From a virus: DNA of 30,808 nucleotides. The stretch is taken from positions 1 through 30,808 of the IMG/VR virus record IMGVR_UViG_3300027974_000106. One strand, given 5' to 3'. Below, one piece after another: positions 3,095-14,924 of the stretch; the stretch's first letter is position 1; each line of letters opens with the position of its first letter. Below the pieces are notes generated by a model. That model saw nothing but the letters and a program-made list of their open reading frames with translations. It had not been told where the DNA came from and ran no database searches. Position numbers and translations under genes: made by a program.

Positions 3095-3121
3095 ATATTA
3101 TCCCCATTATGGGGATAATAT
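3095..3121. repeat. stem-loop behind E4
   Basis: ATATTATCCCCA (3095-3106) pairs with TGGGGATAATAT (3110-3121), 12 bp, directly at the end of the PQ-loop gene. It may end the leftward transcript and would be the 5' hairpin of an E4 transcript. Confidence 0.7.
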
Positions 3122-3122
3122 A

Positions 3123-3371
3123 CTATTGTCTTTCCCAAATCTTATATCGGATCATAACCCCCAAGAATACCAGATTTAATAGGTAATTGAATAACAGGGG
3201 ATAATCCTGTTTAGGCCAGATATAGATTATTGTCAGTATCTCACCGCCTAACCATGCGGCCAAGAAAAACCAGTTTAATCCACGGGAATGTCCATACTTT
3301 GCACATTGAATTGCCTGGGGCAATCCACATATTGCAAATAGGATCGCACCAATCCATCCTATAGTTTCCAT
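3123..3371 (-). CDS. PQ-loop / SemiSWEET-like membrane protein, 82 aa
   Basis: Three hydrophobic segments fill almost the whole protein: about residues 3-22, 33-50 and 58-75. The first contains the PQ motif (CGLPQAIQ, P18-Q19), followed by a short basic loop (KYGHSRGLNW). This matches a single PQ-loop unit of the SemiSWEET type, three helices in roughly 85-95 aa, which dimerise to move small sugars or related solutes across the inner membrane. Translation is coupled to the HAD gene: its stop lies three bases before this ATG, and the AAGG ribosome site lies inside that gene. The substrate cannot be told from sequence. A phage-encoded copy is unusual. Confidence 0.7.
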   Translation of the reverse strand: METIGWIGAILFAICGLPQAIQCAKYGHSRGLNWFFLAAWLGGEILTIIYIWPKQDYPLLFNYLLNLVFLGVMIRYKIWERQ

Positions 3372-3374
3372 TTA

Positions 3375-3851
3375 TTAATGACCTTGTTTTGATGGAACAT
3401 ATACCCCACGGATATTAAAACGGTCACAAACCGCTTTCAGATACTCGATATTGTCTTCATAGAATGTGAATTCAGCATCACGGAAATTGACCAGATTAAA
3501 AAACTTGGCCAAACCACTTATTTTGAGGGTTTTGCCAGATACTGAACTACCCTCGGGGCGGGAAATAAGATAATCGGGTTCGCCGAGAATATCACGGACA
3601 AATTGATAATCGGGTTCGTGCATTACACGGGCAGTAGCGATAATGACAAAAGTGTTTTCGTCGGTCAAATCAGCCTTATATTGTTCAGCCAATGGCAGGA
3701 GAGTATCTTCACCAGCACGATACTCATTTTCTCTCCAGTATTGCAGGTCAATACGTTCCCCATTATCGTCCAAAATAGTACGATACCGATGCAGAGAGTT
3801 AACAATGGTACCGTCCATATCGTAGATACTAACCTTTTTGATCTTTGCCAT
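3375..3851 (-). CDS. HAD-superfamily phosphatase, 158 aa
   Basis: Motif I is DMDGT (nucleophile D11, acid/base D13), motif II is in ATAR (T73), a lysine for motif III lies at K108 or K110, and motif IV is YEDN (132-134). This is a complete small HAD hydrolase, like phage enzymes annotated as nucleotide or polynucleotide phosphatases. It would remove phosphate from a nucleotide or a DNA/RNA 3' end in the cytoplasm. The ATG at 3851 has AGGTG upstream; a GTG three codons earlier is less likely. It is first in an operon with the PQ-loop gene, behind the promoter at 3888-3917. Confidence 0.75.
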   Translation of the reverse strand: MAKIKKVSIYDMDGTIVNSLHRYRTILDDNGERIDLQYWRENEYRAGEDTLLPLAEQYKADLTDENTFVIIATARVMHEPDYQFVRDILGEPDYLISRPEGSSVSGKTLKISGLAKFFNLVNFRDAEFTFYEDNIEYLKAVCDRFNIRGVYVPSKQGH

Positions 3852-3887
3852 TTTGAACACCTAGTGGTTGTCTTTTGCGATGGAGTG

Positions 3888-3917
3888 ATTATGCTTCAGA
3901 AGTCAAACCCATGTCCA
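3888..3917 (-). promoter_or_regulatory. leftward promoter, TGGACA-18-CATAAT
   Basis: On the minus strand TGGACA (3912-3917) and CATAAT (3888-3893) are 18 bp apart, upstream of the HAD gene. The segment after the -10 (AATCACTCCATCGCAA) recurs with one change upstream of the 5138-5266 gene, suggesting a shared start region. Confidence 0.55.
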
Positions 3918-3966
3918 GCGAGGGGTCTTTTGTCCCTACAACCTGTAGGGGCTTTGAGCCAGGCCC

Positions 3967-4005
3967 TTGACCAGGCCCAAAATTATGTGTTATAATTTTG
4001 GCGCC
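3967..4005 (+). promoter_or_regulatory. E5: rightward palindromic promoter element
   Basis: TTGACC (3967-3972), 18 bp, TATAAT (3991-3996), GGCGCC (4000-4005). The dyad CCAAAATTAT-GTGTT-ATAATTTTGG is intact although the -35 and the start of the spacer differ (AGGCCC). Confidence 0.7.
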
Positions 4006-4008
4006 TAT

Positions 4009-4026
4009 ATAGGGGTAAACCCCTAT
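4009..4026. repeat. stem-loop behind E5
   Basis: ATAGGGGT (4009-4016) pairs with ACCCCTAT (4019-4026), just past the stop codon of the small membrane protein gene. Confidence 0.6.
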
Positions 4027-4029
4027 TGA

Positions 4030-4233
4030 CTACCATGCTTTCCACAATCCAATGATGTTAGCCATCATGAAAAACCCATTCAAAACCCCTAAACTAACAT
4101 TCCGGGTCTTGACAGCCACCCAAAGCCAGCACACGCAGCCCACCAAAAACAGAATGTAGCCCATTACCAACACCTGGAATGCCACGACAAAACTGCCGAT
4201 CACGCTTGCCACAGTACCAATCCATCCGATCAT
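4030..4233 (-). CDS. small membrane protein, 67 aa
   Basis: Nearly all hydrophobic, with three likely short membrane segments (residues about 4-22, 24-40 and 48-64) broken by KTRN. The end, NVSLGVLNGFFMMANIIGLWKAW, resembles the final helix of PnuC- or PQ-loop-like small transporters, but the match is too short for a firm family call. Its start codon at 4233 overlaps the stop region of the SprT-like gene (TGACATG), so the two are translationally coupled. It lies last in a three-gene operon, ahead of E5. It could be a transporter subunit, an exclusion protein or a holin-like factor. Confidence 0.7.
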   Translation of the reverse strand: MIGWIGTVASVIGSFVVAFQVLVMGYILFLVGCVCWLWVAVKTRNVSLGVLNGFFMMANIIGLWKAW

Positions 4234-4234
4234 G

Positions 4235-4612
4235 TCAACCCTTGTATTTAGCTTGACGATAGTTTACCATGTTGTGAAGCCGGGTTGTCACAATACCCAT
4301 ACGCTCCAGTACACTATACCAACCCTTGCCATGTCCCGGATCACCGTATATGGTATAAGCCACAAGATGCGCCAATTCGTGGGGGATTGTGTCCACAATC
4401 ATATGGTCAGTGTATTGACAAAACAGGTCCGTGGATAGGTCGATCTTTTGAGGGTTCTCCTCAATGAAGGCCCGGCCGGCCGTGGTCTTCAATCTGTTGT
4501 TCAGGGTCACCACCGGAGTAGCCCTCTGAATTGTAGGGTATTGAGCCCTGAACTTGACCCACCATGAACGCACGTGGTATTGGGCCAGGTCTTGAAGTGT
4601 TTGTTTGTCCAT
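4235..4612 (-). CDS. SprT-like zinc metallopeptidase, 125 aa
   Basis: PHELAHLVAY supplies H78, E79 and H82, and GDPGHGKGW supplies a third ligand at H94. HExxH followed by H-G-x-x-W is the normal SprT-family pattern (SprT itself and phage relatives). The likely role is proteolysis of DNA-bound or misfolded proteins in the cytoplasm, inferred from the family. The ATG at 4612 has GGAG very close (two bases), and a longer reading from TTG cannot be excluded. It is downstream of a 43-aa membrane protein gene and coupled to another. It is clearly divergent from the SprT-like protein at 1758-2141, so the two are not a recent duplication. Confidence 0.8.
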   Translation of the reverse strand: MDKQTLQDLAQYHVRSWWVKFRAQYPTIQRATPVVTLNNRLKTTAGRAFIEENPQKIDLSTDLFCQYTDHMIVDTIPHELAHLVAYTIYGDPGHGKGWYSVLERMGIVTTRLHNMVNYRQAKYKG

Positions 4613-4675
4613 GACTCCATTCTCGCCAGGATGCCTTACAGTTCCCTTACAACCCCTCAATCAGTCAGGATTTTC

Positions 4676-6474: not shown

Positions 6475-6858
6475 ATGAAGAATCATATGCTAGACCCAAT
6501 CTACCAGACAATGATTGGCTTTGAAAACATGTTAAAGCACTCAACCTCTACTTACCCCCCGTACAACCTGTACAAGGCCGACGAACACTATGTGATCGAG
6601 ATTGCGGTAAGTGGCTGGAGTCGTAGCGAGTTGGATGTTTCACTAACCGGCACCACCTTGACAATCAAGGGTACCAAGGAACAAGAGTCAGACAACCGCC
6701 AATACCTTGTCCGTGGACTGGCCCACAGATCCTGGACTCGTACCTGGACCCTAGAACCGGACATCACGGTGTCAAGTGTTCACCTCGTCGACGGCGTCCT
6801 CACCATCGAGCTCACCCAGAGCACCAAGAGCACCACAGTCAAAATTGATATAGCTTAA
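6475..6858 (+). CDS. Hsp20 / IbpA-like small heat-shock chaperone, 127 aa
   Basis: An alpha-crystallin domain spans about residues 28-125. Diagnostic pieces are YPPYNLYKADEHYVIEIAVSG, LTIKGTKEQ, YLVRGLAHRSWTRTWTL and the DGVLTIEL strand that stands for the usual GxL motif. The closest bacterial type is IbpA/IbpB. Such proteins hold unfolding proteins in a refoldable state; in a phage the likely clients are capsid or tail proteins, by inference. The I-x-I tail is present as KIDI. AAAGGA precedes the ATG. It lies directly before the small terminase gene, like hsp20 genes of some aquatic phages. Confidence 0.9.
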   Translation: MKNHMLDPIYQTMIGFENMLKHSTSTYPPYNLYKADEHYVIEIAVSGWSRSELDVSLTGTTLTIKGTKEQESDNRQYLVRGLAHRSWTRTWTLEPDITVSSVHLVDGVLTIELTQSTKSTTVKIDIA

Positions 6859-6866
6859 GGAGTACT

Positions 6867-7340
6867 ATGCTACCAGCCACCCACCCAGCCGAAACACTCC
6901 AGATAGACCCTGAGGGGTTAGAGATTGCCAACTGCTACCTGCAAACTCAGAGCCTGACCAAGGTTGCTGAAGAACTAGGCATCTCCACCGAGCTGGTAGC
7001 CTCTCAACTCAACCGCCGCGAGGTAAAGAGCTATATTGATCAGGTCTTCAAGGACGTAGGATTTAACAACCGCTTCAAAATGCGTAAAGCAATGGATATG
7101 CTTATTAGTAAGAAGTTCCAGGAATTAGACGAGGCGGGAGTGGGGTCATCGAAGGATATCGCAGATCTTTTAGCGTTGAGCCACAAAATGACCATGGAAC
7201 AGTTGGACCGAGAAATTCAGTTAGAGAAAGTGCGTGCGTCCAACATTAAGTCACAGGTAAACGTGCAGATCAATGATGGTGGTTCATCTGGCTCAAATTA
7301 TGGCTCCCTACTAGAGAAACTATTGAAGTCCAATGCTTAA
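6867..7340 (+). CDS. terS: terminase small subunit, 157 aa
   Basis: An N-terminal helix-turn-helix (about residues 28-50, SLTKVAEELGISTELVASQL) recognises the packaging site in this family. A helical oligomerisation core (about 60-125) and a flexible glycine/serine-rich linker follow, with a C-terminal LLEKLLKS helix that probably binds TerL. The ribosome site AAGGAG lies six bases before the ATG. The stop overlaps the terL start by eight bases. The function call leans on position and fold pattern more than on residue identity. Confidence 0.8.
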   Translation: MLPATHPAETLQIDPEGLEIANCYLQTQSLTKVAEELGISTELVASQLNRREVKSYIDQVFKDVGFNNRFKMRKAMDMLISKKFQELDEAGVGSSKDIADLLALSHKMTMEQLDREIQLEKVRASNIKSQVNVQINDGGSSGSNYGSLLEKLLKSNA

Positions 7341-8637
7341 AATATCCAGAAGCGACATTGACCAGTTCAATATTACAGACTACTCAAGCGATGTTCGATT
7401 TATCAAACTGCCCATTGCTAACTACTTGAAGTTGGCCACTGTGGGTGGAGCCCCTATCTACGACAGTTTAAACTGTCCACAAATTGCCCTAATCAATGCG
7501 GTCAACTCACCCAGCTACCGGTTCATCTGTGCTGCACTGAGTCGCCGACTGGGCAAGACCTTTATTGCCAACGTGATTGGACAACTGGTGGTATTAATCC
7601 CAGGTTGTAATGTACTCATCATGAGTCCCAACTACAACCTGTCGACCATTAGTTTTGACCTACAGCGTGGGTTCATCAAGCAGTTTGATTTAGAGGTTAC
7701 AAAAGACAATGTAAAAGACAAGGTCATCGAGCTTTCGAACGGCAGTACTATCCGTATGGGTAGCATTACAACTGTTGACAGTTCAGTTGGTAGGTCTTAC
7801 AACTTGATCATCTTTGACGAAGCTGCACTGGGAGATGGTGGTGAAGAGGCCTTTAATGTGTCATTGCGACCTACTCTAGACCGTCCTGGGTCAAAGGCCA
7901 TCTTTATCTCAACCCCTCGCGGCAAACACAACTGGTTCTCTAAGTTTTGGGAGCGTGGCTGGAGTGACCAATACCCACAGTGGATCTCATTGCAAGCCGA
8001 CTACACTGAAAATGTTCGAATGTTGGAGAGTGACGTAGAAGAAGCTCGCCGAAGTATGTCGAAGGCTGAGTTTGAGCAGGAGTACATGGCATCATTCAAT
8101 GTGTTTGAAGGCCAGATCTATTCACTGTCAGAGTCACTCATTGTAGAGTTTGAACATAGTGACGGTGTGGAGTACCTAGCCGGAATTGACCCCGGCTATC
8201 GCGACCCCACAGCCATGGTGGTATTGGCCTACGACCCCAAAGTGGACACCTTTCATGTAATCGATGAGTATTTAGAGAGCGAAGCCACAACAGCCAAACA
8301 CGCAGAAGCCTTTAGTAAGTTGATTGACCGCTGGGGGTTAGACAGTGGTATCTTTATTGACTCAGCCGCAGCACAGTTTGCAGGTGACTTGGCTTACAGT
8401 TACGATATCTCAACCATCAAGGCCAAAAAGCAGGTCTTAGAAGGCATTGCTTACGTACAAACACTTGTAGAACAGGGTCGTATCAAGGTGGCCCCACACT
8501 GCCGTCACACGTTGGAAATGTTTGATCAGTACCAGTGGGACAACCGTGATACTTTGACCCGAGAAAAGCCTGTACACAGCAAGGTATCACACATAGCAGA
8601 TGCACTCCGCTATGCGGTTTATACCTATACCATTTAG
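7333..8637 (+). CDS. terL: terminase large subunit, 434 aa
   Basis: The ATPase half has a Walker A-like SRRLGKT (70-76), Walker B NLIIFDEA (157-164, D162-E163) and a coupling motif IFISTPRG (190-197). The RNase H-like nuclease half has D286 (GIDPGY), D343 (FIDSAAA) and D423 (HIADALRYA). All catalytic positions are present, so this is a complete packaging motor that pumps and cuts the concatemer. The start overlaps terS and no strong ribosome site is seen, implying coupled translation. Length is typical for this terminase group. Confidence 0.95.
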   Translation: MLKISRSDIDQFNITDYSSDVRFIKLPIANYLKLATVGGAPIYDSLNCPQIALINAVNSPSYRFICAALSRRLGKTFIANVIGQLVVLIPGCNVLIMSPNYNLSTISFDLQRGFIKQFDLEVTKDNVKDKVIELSNGSTIRMGSITTVDSSVGRSYNLIIFDEAALGDGGEEAFNVSLRPTLDRPGSKAIFISTPRGKHNWFSKFWERGWSDQYPQWISLQADYTENVRMLESDVEEARRSMSKAEFEQEYMASFNVFEGQIYSLSESLIVEFEHSDGVEYLAGIDPGYRDPTAMVVLAYDPKVDTFHVIDEYLESEATTAKHAEAFSKLIDRWGLDSGIFIDSAAAQFAGDLAYSYDISTIKAKKQVLEGIAYVQTLVEQGRIKVAPHCRHTLEMFDQYQWDNRDTLTREKPVHSKVSHIADALRYAVYTYTI

Positions 8638-8642
8638 TAGCT

Positions 8643-10463
8643 ATGAAAAAACTAATTCACAGAACCTATATCAACAGTGTAAGAACCAAACCAGGGCCAC
8701 TTGGAAAGCTGTTGGTAGACGGCGGAATACATTTGAGGTATCAACCCATCTGTAACATCTACGACAGTTCTGTGTTTGGCTATGAAGCACTATCCCGAGG
8801 GCCCGGAGGTCACACCCTGGAAAACCCACAAAACATGTTGTTGAGTGCTATCCGAGAGGGCTTGTTGTTAGAGTTTGAAATAGAAACCATACTGTTAGCC
8901 CTAGATTCATGGGATTACAGTGACAACAAGTTGTTGAGACTGTTTTTAAACATAAGCGCCAGTACTCTAGTAAAAATCTTTTTAACAGAGTACATGCCTC
9001 AAGCCAGAGAATTGATTTTTGCAGAGAAACAGAAATACAGCCACAACAGAACAATTGTATTTGAAATCACAGAACACGAAAAAATCACAGACATAGAAGA
9101 CCTGGTGTTGGTGTTGAATACGTTAACAAACATGGGCTTTGAGTTTGCCATGGATGATTTTGGAGAGGGTCACAGCAGTTTGAAACTGTGGTCACAAATA
9201 AAGCCACACTACGTAAAAATCGACAAGTACTTTACAAAAAACCTAGCAAACCATCCAGAGAATTTATTGACCATAAAAGCAATGGTTCAAATAGGTCAGG
9301 TATTTGACAGTAAACTGATAGCAGAAGGCATAGAAAACCAAGAAGACTTTAGAGTTATAAGAGACCTAGACATTCCCTATGGTCAGGGATTTTTAATAGG
9401 CCCTCCAGGAACCACACTGGAAGACACTCGTTCAATATCCAAAAAGATAGCTCAAGACGGCAGAATAAGTGTATTTCCAATGTTAAAAAAGAACAGGTTA
9501 AATTTTAATATCAGATCACTAGAGTATGAAGAAACCCCCTGCGCTACCAGAATGACCACATGCCTTGAAGTTTTTGAACTGTTTTCCAAAAACAAGCAAC
9601 TGTACTCTATAGCAGTGGTAGACGAACACAAAAAGCCGATTGGACTGATTGACAAGATTGCTGTAGCAGATAAATTTTCTGTGCCTTATTTTAAAGAAAT
9701 AAATGGTAAAAAGTCGTGTGTTGAATTAATGAACAGTTCAATAAAGGTCTTGGAAGCAGACAGCAATCTACAAGACTTGTTGGATGTTTTGAGTTCTGAA
9801 GACCAAAAGTATCTGTCTAGCGGCTTTGTAGTAGTGCGAAAAGGTCGATATGTGGGGTTGTGTTCTGCAGAACATGTTGTAAGAGTTATAACAGAATTGA
9901 GAATAGAGGCAGCACGTCATGAAAACCCACTAACATCTCTGCCAGGTAACTTGCCTATTACTCAACACATTGACAGACTCCTGGCAAGCAAAAATCCTTT
10001 TGTTGCTTGTTATGTAGACTTGAATAACTTCAAACAGTTTAACGATAAGTACGGCTATCAAAAAGGCGACATGTTGTTGCAACTATTGGCTGCAATTATT
10101 GTACAAAACTGTGATAATAAACTGGACTTTGTGGGGCATGTAGGCGGAGACGACTTTGTAATGTTAATGCAGAGTCAAACCTGGGAAAATCGCTGCATTG
10201 AAATTATAGAACAACTAAACAGAGATGCTGTAAAATTCTATACCAAACAAGACCAGGAAGAGGGCGGGATAACAGCAGAAGATCGGCATGGAGTAACACG
10301 TTTCTTTCCTTTTACCACCCTAGCAATTGGAGTGGTGTTAATAGACGGCTCTACCTCACACACAGGTGAAACTATCTCTGAACTAGCAGCAGTGGCAAAA
10401 AAGCATGCTAAATTAAACAACACAACAGGCATATACGTATTGAACTCTGTTAGTAATGGGTAA
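8643..10463 (+). CDS. EAL-CBS-GGDEF cyclic-di-GMP enzyme, 606 aa
   Basis: The EAL domain (about 25-265) has YEAL (E48), N103 (LNIS), E141 (EITE), DDFG (D171-D172), K192 (VKID), E228 (AEGIE) and Q248 (QGFLIG), the residues needed to hydrolyse cyclic-di-GMP. A CBS pair (about 300-415) follows, then a GGDEF domain (about 428-600) with YVDLNNFKQFND, QKGD and GGDDF at 501-505. The allosteric RxxD site is degenerate (N492 for R, D495 kept). Active phosphodiesterase is likely, and cyclase activity possible. Length and order match chromosomal EAL-CBS-GGDEF regulators. No ribosome site is seen; the ATG lies five bases after the terL stop. It looks richer in AT codons than terL, which suggests recent acquisition. 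Its place inside the packaging operon is very unusual. Confidence 0.93.
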   Translation: MKKLIHRTYINSVRTKPGPLGKLLVDGGIHLRYQPICNIYDSSVFGYEALSRGPGGHTLENPQNMLLSAIREGLLLEFEIETILLALDSWDYSDNKLLRLFLNISASTLVKIFLTEYMPQARELIFAEKQKYSHNRTIVFEITEHEKITDIEDLVLVLNTLTNMGFEFAMDDFGEGHSSLKLWSQIKPHYVKIDKYFTKNLANHPENLLTIKAMVQIGQVFDSKLIAEGIENQEDFRVIRDLDIPYGQGFLIGPPGTTLEDTRSISKKIAQDGRISVFPMLKKNRLNFNIRSLEYEETPCATRMTTCLEVFELFSKNKQLYSIAVVDEHKKPIGLIDKIAVADKFSVPYFKEINGKKSCVELMNSSIKVLEADSNLQDLLDVLSSEDQKYLSSGFVVVRKGRYVGLCSAEHVVRVITELRIEAARHENPLTSLPGNLPITQHIDRLLASKNPFVACYVDLNNFKQFNDKYGYQKGDMLLQLLAAIIVQNCDNKLDFVGHVGGDDFVMLMQSQTWENRCIEIIEQLNRDAVKFYTKQDQEEGGITAEDRHGVTRFFPFTTLAIGVVLIDGSTSHTGETISELAAVAKKHAKLNNTTGIYVLNSVSNG

Positions 10464-10470
10464 TATAAAA

Positions 10471-10519
10471 GGGGGTTGTCAAAAAAGGTTTTGACAACCC
10501 CCTGCCTACATGCTATAAT
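10471..10519 (+). promoter_or_regulatory. perfect consensus promoter with its -35 inside a 14-bp inverted repeat
   Basis: TTGACA (10491-10496), exactly 17 bp, TATAAT (10514-10519). The -35 is in the right arm of GGGGGTTGTCAAAA (10471-10484) / TTTTGACAACCCCC (10489-10502). TTGACA-R-CCCCC also marks E1, E2 and E4. There is no U-run after the hairpin, so it is not a normal terminator. It would drive the GIY-YIG gene and onward. Confidence 0.85.
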
Positions 10520-10583: not shown

Positions 10584-10613
10584 CCGACACACGGACCGCC
10601 TCTATCTTGTCGG
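10584..10613 (+). promoter_or_regulatory. inverted repeat masking the GIY-YIG ribosome site
   Basis: CCGACA (10584-10589) can pair with TGTCGG (10608-10613), which contains part of the CGGAG ribosome site for the ATG at 10622. I-TevI of T4 is known to be held back by a hairpin over its ribosome site; this may be similar. The loop is 18 nt. Confidence 0.4.
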
Positions 10614-10621
10614 AGATCATC

Positions 10622-11317
10622 ATGACTATTGGAATTTATCGTCTGTGCTTTAGTGGCACAGACAGTTGTTATATTGGGCAGAGCATCAACATAGAGCAAA
10701 GATATAGAGAACATCTACGGAATTTTATAAATAAAAATCATTATCCAAAAATGATGGATGCATATCTCAAGTATGGTCAACCTGAATTAGATATATTATG
10801 TGAGTGTAACGTAGAAGACCTAAATGCTTTAGAGAATGAAGCAATTCAAATATTTGATAGCGTAAATAATGGATTTAATACAAATAGTAGGGCAGATCAG
10901 ATGCCTGTATTATATGGTGAATCTAATGGATACTCAAAGTATAGCAATAATCAAATAATACAGGTAGCAAAACTATTGACAGAAGTAGGTAAGACTCATT
11001 CCGATATTAGTAATCTTACTGGTGTAAGTATCAGTACTATAAGACATATTTCTTGCTTAGAAGGCCATAATTGGCTAGCCGAGATAGAACCAGAAATATA
11101 TAGTAAATTAATAAAATTAAAAGGTAGCAGAAAAACTGTTGCTAATAATACCTATAAATATCCAGATGTAATATCACCAGATGGGGTTGTTTATAGAGAT
11201 ATTCCAAATATATCTGCATTTTCAAAAGAGCATAGTTTAAATAATGGTAATTTTACTATGCTATTACAAGGTAAACGTAAGATACACAAAGGCTGGAGAC
11301 TGTGCACTAATGGCTAA
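10622..11317 (+). CDS. GIY-YIG homing-type endonuclease, 231 aa
   Basis: The N-terminal nuclease domain (about 1-90) shows GIY (4-6), CYIGQS for YIG, the catalytic arginine region (IEQRYREHL) and the metal-binding glutamate in ALENEAI. The middle has a DNA-binding HTH-like stretch (HSDISNLTGVSISTIRHISC), as in segmented homing endonucleases of the Seg/I-TevI type. The C-terminus (PDGVVYRDIPNISAFSKEHSLNNGNFTMLLQGKRKIHKGWRL) is a NUMOD-like DNA-contact repeat. GGAG lies six bases before the ATG. The gene is AT-rich and sits between packaging and portal genes, as expected of a selfish insertion. No intron is evident. Confidence 0.85.
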   Translation: MTIGIYRLCFSGTDSCYIGQSINIEQRYREHLRNFINKNHYPKMMDAYLKYGQPELDILCECNVEDLNALENEAIQIFDSVNNGFNTNSRADQMPVLYGESNGYSKYSNNQIIQVAKLLTEVGKTHSDISNLTGVSISTIRHISCLEGHNWLAEIEPEIYSKLIKLKGSRKTVANNTYKYPDVISPDGVVYRDIPNISAFSKEHSLNNGNFTMLLQGKRKIHKGWRLCTNG

Positions 11318-11738
11318 GAATACTAGGAACAGAATACCTGTCAAATGGATACGTGATAAAGCCAAGAGTGCGTACGAGAAAAAAGATCATTGTTATATCT
11401 GCGGAACCAATCAAGACTTAGAACTACACCACACCCATTCAGTTACTCTACTTTTAGAGCGTTGGATCGAAAAAACAGGTCGTGATTTTTCTTCTGATGA
11501 GGCAACCATAGCCAATAGAGAAGAATTTATTCAGCATCACCACAAAGAAATATATGATGATGTTTACACTCTTTGTGTAAATCATCATGTGGCTTTGCAC
11601 GGAGTGTATGGAAAAGCACCGCCTCTTTCTACTGCTCAAAAGCAAGGAGTCTGGATAGAAACTCAAAAGGCTAAAGTAACACTGAACCCCGGCGACAGAC
11701 CGAAAGTGGTCAGCGGAAGTTTTGGCGAATTTTATTGA
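11310..11738 (+). CDS. HNH endonuclease, 142 aa
   Basis: CYICG and LCVNHH give a CxxC...CxxH zinc pair that holds the fold, and LELHHTHSV plus the NHH carry the catalytic HNH histidines. Small HNH proteins beside terminase are established partners of DNA packaging in HK97-like phages (HK97 gp74), so a role in genome cutting during packaging is the best reading. The ATG overlaps the stop of the GIY-YIG gene by eight bases, so it could alternatively be a second mobile endonuclease. It precedes the portal gene by nine bases. Confidence 0.85.
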   Translation: MAKNTRNRIPVKWIRDKAKSAYEKKDHCYICGTNQDLELHHTHSVTLLLERWIEKTGRDFSSDEATIANREEFIQHHHKEIYDDVYTLCVNHHVALHGVYGKAPPLSTAQKQGVWIETQKAKVTLNPGDRPKVVSGSFGEFY

Positions 11739-12947: not shown

Positions 12948-14924
12948 ATGAAAGATAAAGTACTACACTTAAATAGTGCTTTTTCCATCAAAGCTGCAGA
13001 CAGCGCCGACAGTTCTATCTACATCGAAGGGTACGCCAGTACAATCGATGTAGATCGTCAAGGCGATGTAGTTCCCACAAGTGTGTGGGAAAAAGGAATG
13101 CAGAACTACCTAAAGAATCCAGTTATTCTGGCCTACCACGATCACAATAATCCGATCGGACGTATGACAGAGCACAAGACGGATGGTAGGGGTTTGTGGA
13201 TAAAAGCAAGAATTTCAACGGCTGCAAAGCAATTCCAACTTATTAAAGACGGAGTTCTTACAGCTTTCTCTATCGGCTTCAGGGTGTTGGATGCTGAGTA
13301 CAACTCAGCGGCTGAAGTGTTTTTAATCAAGGACTTGGAATTGGTGGAGATTTCCGTCGTTTCAGTTCCTGCAAATCAAAATACTCTTTTTGATCTATCA
13401 AAAGCATTTGACAATGCTGAAGAATACAAGCGTTATAAAGAGCAATTTGCAACTCAAGGCCAATCAGCTAAAGGGCTAGAGTGTTCTACAGAAGCAGATC
13501 GCGATGTTAAAAAGGAATGGAATATGAATCCAGAAGAAATCAAGCAAATGCTTGCCCAAGCCGCTCGTGAAGCTGCCGAACAAGCTACCAAGGCTCTAGA
13601 AGCCCGTCAACAAGCCGAAGCTCAAGCCAAGGCACAAGAAATCGCCCGTCAGGCTGAGATCGATACACGCGTTAAGGCCGCTGTAGAAGCTCATGTCCAG
13701 GTTGGCCAGACTGGAGCTGAAAAGCTACTAGCCGAAGTTGAGAAGCGCTTTGAAACTGAGCGTGCCGCTCAGAAGAGTGCTCTAGAAGGTCTAGAGTCTG
13801 TTCTAAAGGAAAAGGCCGACGAATTGAAGGCTCTGCAGACTTCAAAGATGGCTTTTGGCGACAAGTCAAAGGGTGATAGCACCTCCTACAAGGAGCGTGA
13901 ACTAGCAGTGTTACTATCAAAGGTAACTGGCAAGTCTCTCGAGTCTACACGTTATGGTAAGACTATCGTTGAGAAGGCCGGTGGTCACCTAGGTGGTGGT
14001 AGCAATACAACTGGTATTATCACTGCTCCTAATTCTCAGTGGGAAACCGAAGTTTCCACAAACATGGAAGAAGAAGTACGTCGTCGTCTAGTAATGGCTC
14101 CTCTAATGAGAAGCGTAGCCATGCAGACCAACGTTATGAGAATGCCTCTAAATCCAGAAGCTGGTGCAGCTACTTGGGTTATCAACAGTGATTTTGGTAA
14201 TAGTAACAACAACAGCTCCGGTAGTACAGCTACTCATGTACTAAAGGAAGTTACTCTAAATTCATTCAAGGTAGCCACACGCGAGTATATGGCCCTTGAA
14301 GAAGAAGAGGATTCAATCCTAGTTCTACTACCTATCGTTCGTGATGCTATGCTACGCCGTGTTGCACGTGCTGTAGATGCAGCTTTCATCAACGGTGCTG
14401 GCAGTGGCAGCGACCCAGTCAAGGGTATTGCTATGTTTGACACAGCTTCAGCTGTTCAGATCGATAGTAGCAACCCTGTAACTATCGCCAAGATGAGAGC
14501 TCTTCGCAAGGATCTCGGAGCTTGGGGCTTAGAGCCTTCAGAGTTGGTTTATGTAGTTAACACAGAAACATACTACAACCTACTAGACGACACCAACTTC
14601 ATGACTGTTGACAAGGTAGGCGATCGCGCTACATTGCTAACTGGTCAAATTGGTACCATTGCCAACACACCAGTAGTTGTAAGCGGCGAAATGCCAGCAA
14701 TCGCTGAAGCAGCTGATGGCGCCGGCACAAACATTGCAGCCTTCTGCTTTGCACCTGCCAACTTCTTAGTAGGCAACCAGCGTGGTCTACGTGTTGATAC
14801 TGACGTATTGACAGAGCGTCAGAGCCGTGTACTAGTAGCTTCACTACGTACTGGTCTAACACAGTTGACAACTAACCTAGGACCTGCAGTAAGCACCCTA
14901 CGTTACGTTAACGGAGCGACCTGA
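12948..14924 (+). CDS. prohead protease-scaffold-major capsid fusion, 658 aa
   Basis: Residues about 23-150 are an HK97-type prohead protease (YIEGYASTIDVDRQGDVV; catalytic H64 in YHDH, S108 in AFSIGF, then ELVEISVVSVPAN). Residues about 193-300 are a scaffold-like, alanine- and glutamate-rich coiled coil. Residues about 345-658 are an HK97-fold capsid protein (GGSNTTGIITAPNSQWETEV onward). The protease presumably frees the parts during maturation. AAGGAG precedes the ATG. A second good ribosome site (AAGGA) precedes an in-frame ATG at 13524, giving MNPEEIK and a 466-aa scaffold-capsid product. Leucine codons in the capsid part are mostly CTA. A terminator follows. Confidence 0.93.
   Translation: MKDKVLHLNSAFSIKAADSADSSIYIEGYASTIDVDRQGDVVPTSVWEKGMQNYLKNPVILAYHDHNNPIGRMTEHKTDGRGLWIKARISTAAKQFQLIKDGVLTAFSIGFRVLDAEYNSAAEVFLIKDLELVEISVVSVPANQNTLFDLSKAFDNAEEYKRYKEQFATQGQSAKGLECSTEADRDVKKEWNMNPEEIKQMLAQAAREAAEQATKALEARQQAEAQAKAQEIARQAEIDTRVKAAVEAHVQVGQTGAEKLLAEVEKRFETERAAQKSALEGLESVLKEKADELKALQTSKMAFGDKSKGDSTSYKERELAVLLSKVTGKSLESTRYGKTIVEKAGGHLGGGSNTTGIITAPNSQWETEVSTNMEEEVRRRLVMAPLMRSVAMQTNVMRMPLNPEAGAATWVINSDFGNSNNNSSGSTATHVLKEVTLNSFKVATREYMALEEEEDSILVLLPIVRDAMLRRVARAVDAAFINGAGSGSDPVKGIAMFDTASAVQIDSSNPVTIAKMRALRKDLGAWGLEPSELVYVVNTETYYNLLDDTNFMTVDKVGDRATLLTGQIGTIANTPVVVSGEMPAIAEAADGAGTNIAAFCFAPANFLVGNQRGLRVDTDVLTERQSRVLVASLRTGLTQLTTNLGPAVSTLRYVNGAT
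13514..13526 (+). promoter_or_regulatory. internal ribosome site and start in the capsid fusion gene
   Basis: AAGGA followed seven bases later by ATG (13524-13526, residue 193) allows independent translation of the scaffold-capsid part. This would give capsid in excess over protease. Confidence 0.5.

Follow-up and report, generated by a model that had tools for sequence, protein, structure and literature searches.

Why would a phage carry a complete enzyme of bacterial cyclic-di-GMP (c-di-GMP) signalling next to the genes that package its DNA? The question is posed by a 30,808-base IMG/VR record (the window, by which we mean the whole stretch of DNA analysed), in which Pfam and PHROG family searches identified a siphophage gene set comprising terS, terL, portal, fused protease-capsid, head-tail and tail proteins, tape measure and a J-type protein. 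We posit, with a probability of about 0.62, that the gene is captured and selectively kept cargo encoding a RapA/PA3258-type phosphodiesterase, which would lower host c-di-GMP during infection. The features of the locus are listed in Table 1.

Table 1. Features in and around the EAL-CBS-GGDEF gene, in positions of the window
Feature	Position	Strand	Basis
terS, small terminase subunit	6867..7340	+	phrog_3802, 6.9e-38
terL, large terminase subunit, 5' neighbour of the EAL-CBS-GGDEF gene	7333..8637	+	Pfam, PHROG
EAL-CBS-GGDEF gene, RapA/PA3258-type	8643..10463	+	ORF, Pfam, alignment
EAL domain, residues 26-255	8718..9407	+	Pfam; E48, N103, E141, D171, D172, K192, E228, Q248 present
CBS region, about residues 306-417	9558..9893	+	Pfam, predicted secondary structure
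GGDEF domain, residues 429-539	9927..10259	+	Pfam; GGDDF motif at 501-505
Hairpin directly 3' of the EAL-CBS-GGDEF gene, overlapping the -35 box	10470..10503		15-bp arms, -25.2 kcal/mol (window)
Predicted sigma-70-type promoter, 12/12, TG before the -10 box	10491..10519	+	consensus match
GIY-YIG homing endonuclease-like gene, same cargo site	10607..11317	+	Pfam, PHROG
Small conserved gene, right border of the cargo site	11244..11738	+	phrog_3497; weak HNH similarity

Domains, family and predicted activity

The initial annotation had described a complete EAL-CBS-GGDEF gene, and this description holds. The open reading frame encodes 606 amino acids with no internal stop, and Pfam recognizes EAL (4.1e-42), GGDEF (1.8e-16) and CBS (9.3e-9) domains, each above its curated cut-off and far beyond chance. 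The order of the domains in one chain is that of RapA/PA3258-type proteins, with one CBS by Pfam; this single match is the second CBS (residues 361-417), and predicted secondary structure suggests a first CBS within residues 306-417. An AlphaFold model of the protein was of modest quality (pLDDT 75.8, pTM 0.47, 7 sequences in the alignment). According to Foldseek, its EAL part matches solved EAL domains with TM by target of up to 0.82, which adds little to the sequence evidence.

Relatives were sought in plasmid records and in one phylum, the latter through draws of genomes at the levels of order, family, class and phylum. The best named relatives, which come from plasmid records and cover 90-100% of the query, are a 'phosphodiesterase' of the Polaromonas plasmid pE3SP1 (WP_181375562.1, 43% identity) and proteins of Ideonella (42%) and a Comamonadaceae bacterium (40%), followed by those of Caballeronia and Cupriavidus (34-36%), Marinobacter (33%) and P. 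aeruginosa (32%). The closest relative found (45%) belongs to one Burkholderiales family, and the best relatives found, at 43-45%, are Burkholderiales genes. The Burkholderiales 'phosphodiesterases' among the named relatives (Polaromonas, Ideonella, Caballeronia and Cupriavidus, 34-43%) differ from the phage gene in being cellular or plasmid genes.

The P. aeruginosa protein (WP_003091594.1) adjoins a gene for a carboxy-terminal processing peptidase, and we take it to be PA3258, since its neighbours are those of PA3257-PA3258. It is homologous to the phage protein over the full length (32.6%) and shares its GGDDF motif, the comparison being with this protein and not with RapA itself. This copy lies in a plasmid record; the RapA and PA3258 genes are chromosomal. 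RapA of strain Pf0-1 and PA3258 have the same domain order and EAL residues as the phage protein, while the phage copy stands apart from them by its AT-rich composition, its place directly behind terL and its wide divergence. PA3258 has been described as an EAL-CBS-GGDEF protein homologous to the phosphodiesterase RapA, and the accessible text of that source reports that no phenotype was detected for it (PMC12900916). RapA of P. fluorescens is described as lowering c-di-GMP under phosphate starvation, upon which the adhesin LapA is lost and the biofilm detaches; rapA of Pf0-1 is under PhoB control, which is a feature of that gene and not of the family (PMC3032545). By its alignment, the 606-aa protein is a member of the RapA/PA3258 family of c-di-GMP phosphodiesterases. 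The phage protein and its relatives have the signatures NPLTxLPGN and GH(V/I)GGDDF in common, which are derived from our own alignment and have no published definition.

The alignment contained 53 cellular rows (L084, L097-L146, L147 and L148; L085-L088 were dropped, as too little of the query was covered). The eight EAL positions given in Table 1, which we take to be the metal and catalytic positions of the domain, are the same in the phage protein and in all 53 relatives, and H499 and GGDDF are likewise found in 53 of 53, so that the catalytic residues and the motif reported by the initial annotation are both present. Decay peculiar to the phage was rejected as an explanation of GGDDF, since the motif is the state of the family and not a phage lesion. 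The consensus of active diguanylate cyclases is GG(D/E)EF, from which GGDDF departs. Cyclases also commonly, though not obligatorily, have an RxxD inhibitory site; at the position where we place it, the phage protein has N492 and D495 and no I-site arginine. Together with the direction of RapA, the family-wide GGDDF and the missing arginine favour a predicted phosphodiesterase with a regulatory GGDEF domain over a dual enzyme. The dual regulator proposed by the initial annotation, able to lower or raise c-di-GMP, is thus retained in its lowering part, whereas the dual or raising part is less likely, given that RapA lowers c-di-GMP and that GGDDF occurs in all 53 relatives.

Further carriers, selection and the site behind terL

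A protein search of viral contigs yielded four more IMG/VR carriers, L002 (100%), L003 (99%), L004 (98%) and L005 (98%), which bear four different IMG metagenome numbers. The gene is found at the same locus in all of them, as the initial annotation had proposed to look for in related phages. The distance from terL to the gene is the same in all five carriers, and the right-hand border is visible in four (window, L002, L004 and L005), the contig of L003 ending earlier. L002 and the window do not differ in the EAL gene or in terL and show 5 differences in the portal gene, so that L002 may represent nearly the same phage. An assembly chimera, the refutation named by the initial annotation, was rejected because five contigs join terL and the gene alike, with both borders in four of them.

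The reading frame is open in all five carriers, and no broken copy was found among them. In the diverged pairs the gene is under purifying selection, with dN/dS values of 0.069 (L004-L005), 0.077 (L003-L004), 0.056 (L003-L005), 0.129 (window-L004) and 0.084 (window-L005), similar to those of terL (0.073-0.135); these pairs share branches and are hence not independent. The deficit of nonsynonymous changes against the neutral expectation has a P of 6.7e-14 for L004-L005. The GGDEF part is included in this selection, with 13 synonymous changes and 1 nonsynonymous change between the window and L005 (P 2.3e-8). In the close pair of window and L003, no purifying selection was detected (dN/dS 0.447, 4 synonymous and 7 nonsynonymous changes, P 0.195). 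Six of the eleven base differences of this pair fall in codons 129, 130 and 132 (codons 129-132 are window positions 9027-9038), giving three close amino-acid changes in the window where L003, L004 and L005 agree. This cluster may reflect a local conversion event, or selection acting on the lineage of the window.

For the comparison of sites, the best 80 of 181 terL relatives found were used. The resulting 84 sources (the window and L001-L083) included 3 duplicates, and 75 of the other 81 contained terL and the next conserved gene. Among these 75 loci, the gap behind terL is shorter than 200 bases in 31, including all seven sisters with a terL 95-96% identical (L008-L013 and L025). It holds the EAL gene in 4, matches to the GIY-YIG protein of the window in 28 (two of these also with the EAL gene) and other frames in fourteen. 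According to Pfam, nine such cargo frames comprise ferritin-like (L059, L067, L069) and GIY-YIG (L033, L050) proteins, the rest being of no clear family. A search for the EAL gene in 50 of the 83 loci gave 4 matches, each of them a known carrier; fragments make up many of the other records. Overall, the space behind terL is a recurrent cargo site that is mostly occupied by homing endonucleases and occasionally by host-like genes. The ferritin-like cargo (L059:3891-4325, L067:6196-6705 and L069:1442-1951), Dps-like by eye, is another host-like example, and L083 carries at the same site a gene for 465 amino acids (3109-4503, minus strand) that matches a treble-clef zinc finger and, below threshold, the Mom family.

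The terL protein shares 47-48% identity with terminases of Vibrio phages that mostly measure about 113 kb and rank first among the 1274 phage records with a match, and Pfam finds a T5_p143 (tail completion) domain in the window. By these similarities, seen in partial genomes, the carriers may represent an uncultured, T5-like lineage. Three further features of the window are recorded here. An Hsp20 small heat-shock gene (6475-6858) lies directly before terS and recurs in the near sisters with contigs extending to this point; a single ORF of 658 amino acids (12948-14924) is a fusion of a prohead protease domain (Peptidase_S78) with a major capsid domain; and two short genes on the minus strand (1758-2171 and 4235-4660), which both weakly match phrog_6361 and have HExxH-like motifs by eye, are possibly zinc-peptidase-like.

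The initial annotation was right in that 5 bases separate the terL stop from the ATG of the gene and that the gene has no ribosome site of its own, no Shine-Dalgarno-like sequence being visible by eye in the 25 bases upstream. The spacing of stop and start suggests translational coupling to terL. Placement inside the packaging operon, as likewise claimed, stands for the junction with terL and is qualified on the other side, where a 12/12 promoter match follows directly. Given this match, the gene seems to close a terS-terL unit set off from the portal-capsid unit. A counterpart of the promoter is visible in the nine gene-free loci inspected. The left arm of the hairpin pairs with the -35 region in all five carriers, with 15-bp arms; all five share the exact 14-base sequence of this arm, which recurs elsewhere among the 84 sources only in duplicates of carriers. 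Promoter and hairpin are predicted elements, and a consensus match does not in itself prove their function. Lying on the -35 box of the portal-unit promoter, the hairpin may serve as a terminator of the terL-EAL message or modulate the promoter. Judged by the neighbouring genes, expression would be late.

Origin of the gene and phage precedents

The gene is AT-richer than terL, as the initial annotation had stated (GC 0.394-0.395 and GC3 0.392, against 0.469 and 0.520), yet within the range of other genes of this phage (p143 0.342, tape measure 0.399, GIY 0.319). The contrast with cellular relatives from the order and family is larger, their loci (gene plus flank, n=50) having a median GC of 0.637, which points to an old capture and long adaptation to the phage. 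The tree, built from 57 rows, unites the phage copies in a single group that joins 25 cellular rows (100/99); both are nested within a larger group with 27 cellular rows (100/97). Since 50 of the 53 cellular rows come from Burkholderiales, the tree places the gene within this order and does not demonstrate an origin from it; the long phage branch (2.29), the deviating composition, the midpoint root and the sampling of one order make the donor uncertain.

The draws of genomes bear on the same point. At 1e-60 or better, 130 of 399 genomes of Burkholderiales (the order of a Limnohabitans genome) match, and 76 of 399 genomes of one Burkholderiales family do so at 1e-140. When 398 genomes were drawn evenly across the phylum, 10 matched at 1e-110 or better, nine of them genomes already drawn from the order or the family and one new at 37%, which supports Burkholderiales as the order of the relatives. 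None of 369 genomes of the class matched at 1e-120, an empty answer that is uninformative in itself. A scan of genome contigs was insensitive, returning five loci and missing the 45% relatives, and the one tRNA found in one of eight loci was uninformative as a clue to the host. From the relatives of the gene, a Burkholderiales-like donor and host appear likely.

Whether such genes have precedents in phages was assessed in several collections. Among 50,697 phage records, there is none in which 80% of the 606-aa protein is covered in one place, and a DNA-level search of phage records gave no match. The best two of 50 phage-record rows, H1 and H2, match in two pieces with 61-62% covered; they were set aside as GGDEF-EAL proteins, with the domain order reversed, from short faecal records that lack annotation and in which the neighbouring genes look bacterial by eye. 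A profile scan of viral contigs with two short peptide patterns gave 12 loci, comprising the four known carriers, partial matches (L153-L158) and no further convincing phage carrier. L151 (36%), located near an integrase gene where its contig ends, and L152 (27%), which adjoins a carboxyltransferase-like gene and has a MuB-like ATPase farther away (names by eye), were read as bacterial flanks of prophages. In BFVD, 9 matches with E up to 0.001 were found, of which five are named GGDEF or diguanylate cyclase and none EAL.

Within the records searched, the claim that such a gene had not been described in phages holds for the complete type and fails for its domains. No description of an EAL-CBS-GGDEF gene in a phage was found in the open-access literature searched. 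GGDEF proteins are, however, listed for Bacillus phage SP-15 and Bordetella phage CN1 and a GGDEF/EAL protein for Citrobacter phage Chris1, and these phage genomes resemble the window in encoding c-di-GMP enzyme domains. They differ in that none of the three proteins is recorded as EAL-CBS-GGDEF; the gene of Chris1 lies near integrase and DNA invertase genes, as in a temperate phage. The genes yhjH and mucR have been reported from a few viral populations (PMC11295528). Other phage products alter host c-di-GMP signalling, as proposed for the enzyme of the window: YIPs of PB1-like phages bind YfiN and raise c-di-GMP (review, PMC9145820), and Dap1 of Pakpunavirus inhibits the phosphodiesterase DipA, likewise in the raising direction (PMC12846349). 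Both act on host enzymes and, in the accessible parts of these sources, are not described as enzymes themselves. Of the overall reading of the initial annotation, a complete, native c-di-GMP enzyme gene, which is moreover under selection in the diverged pairs, is upheld; the dual action is less likely, and an absence of c-di-GMP enzyme genes from described phages is not supported.

Proposed role and rival explanations

We posit that an ancient capture from a Burkholderiales-like host brought in the gene, which selection has since maintained at the cargo site behind terL, where it would be transcribed with terS and terL and probably translated by coupling to terL. Late in infection, the enzyme would cleave c-di-GMP in the infected cell. 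Loss of c-di-GMP may cause adhesins to be shed, stop matrix polysaccharide and favour motility, so that progeny escape the biofilm; alternatively, c-di-GMP-dependent surface glycans may be removed, limiting re-adsorption and superinfection. In E. coli, the phosphodiesterase PdeL is reported to lower c-di-GMP and thereby to protect the cell from phage N4 (PMC8669472). By analogy, biofilm dispersal as with RapA, or loss of c-di-GMP-dependent receptors as with PdeL and N4, is a plausible benefit. A more specific scenario, which we offer tentatively, is that of a lytic lineage in which a late, terminase-tied phosphodiesterase strips the cell of c-di-GMP before lysis, so that adhesins and surface glycans would vanish before the progeny emerge.

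The GGDEF domain could instead dominate, making the protein a net cyclase or a true dual enzyme that raises c-di-GMP like other phage factors, a reading we consider unlikely. It could draw on D459, N467, D468, D476 and the GGD part of the motif, kept in all 53 relatives, and on the purifying selection on the GGDEF part; this conservation would be explained equally well by a GGDEF domain that binds GTP without cyclising it and regulates the EAL domain, and non-cyclising regulatory GGDEF domains are known in other composite proteins. The motif is GGDDF and not GG(D/E)EF in all 53 rows, the EAL domain is complete, and the characterised RapA lowers c-di-GMP (PMC3032545). The raising direction of YIPs and Dap1, as described, counts for the cyclase and against the phosphodiesterase. 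Somewhat less probable is a degenerate regulator or sensor that lacks significant catalysis, binding nucleotides and working through partners instead. The model for it is DdpB of Bordetella (BB2957), which shares with the phage protein the GGDDF motif and CBS domains between two enzymatic domains, CBS pairs being ligand modules, and which has mutated motifs and no activity reported in the accessible text (PMC12805831). With PA3258, for which no phenotype is reported, DdpB indicates that members of the family can be inactive or conditional; the phage protein differs from DdpB in having EAL instead of ESL and all the catalytic residues checked.

A role in counter-defence, the enzyme removing a cyclic dinucleotide alarm such as the c-di-GMP sensed by bacterial STING in CBASS, is about as improbable as a degenerate regulator. 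Counter-defence genes are usually early, whereas this gene lies among late-type structural genes, and no defence gene is annotated beside the two named relatives inspected. Bacterial STING is described as sensing c-di-GMP made by a CD-NTase during infection (PMC8748872, PMC12421889). An EAL enzyme would degrade this signal; the words 'phosphodiesterase' and 'EAL' do not occur in the one CBASS-STING paper searched for them. Very improbable, finally, is a neutral passenger or an assembly chimera, although the site collects other cargo and the gene differs from terL in composition. The terL junction shared by five contigs, the frame open in all of them, the purifying selection in diverged pairs and the low GC against that of the cellular loci, indicative of long adaptation to the phage, all speak against it.

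Phages are known to depend on and to disturb host c-di-GMP, and the cases we found concern receptor expression and small proteins acting on host enzymes. A complete, selectively kept phosphodiesterase beside the packaging genes would offer a direct way to test whether a phage resets the switch between biofilm and motility enzymatically, and the presence or absence of the gene at one cargo site in close sisters provides a clean marker by which carriers and non-carriers can be compared. If the scenario of a late, terminase-tied phosphodiesterase is true, this lineage would combine enzymatic dispersal with superinfection exclusion via a bacterial second messenger, in the direction opposite to that of the phage interferers that we found described.
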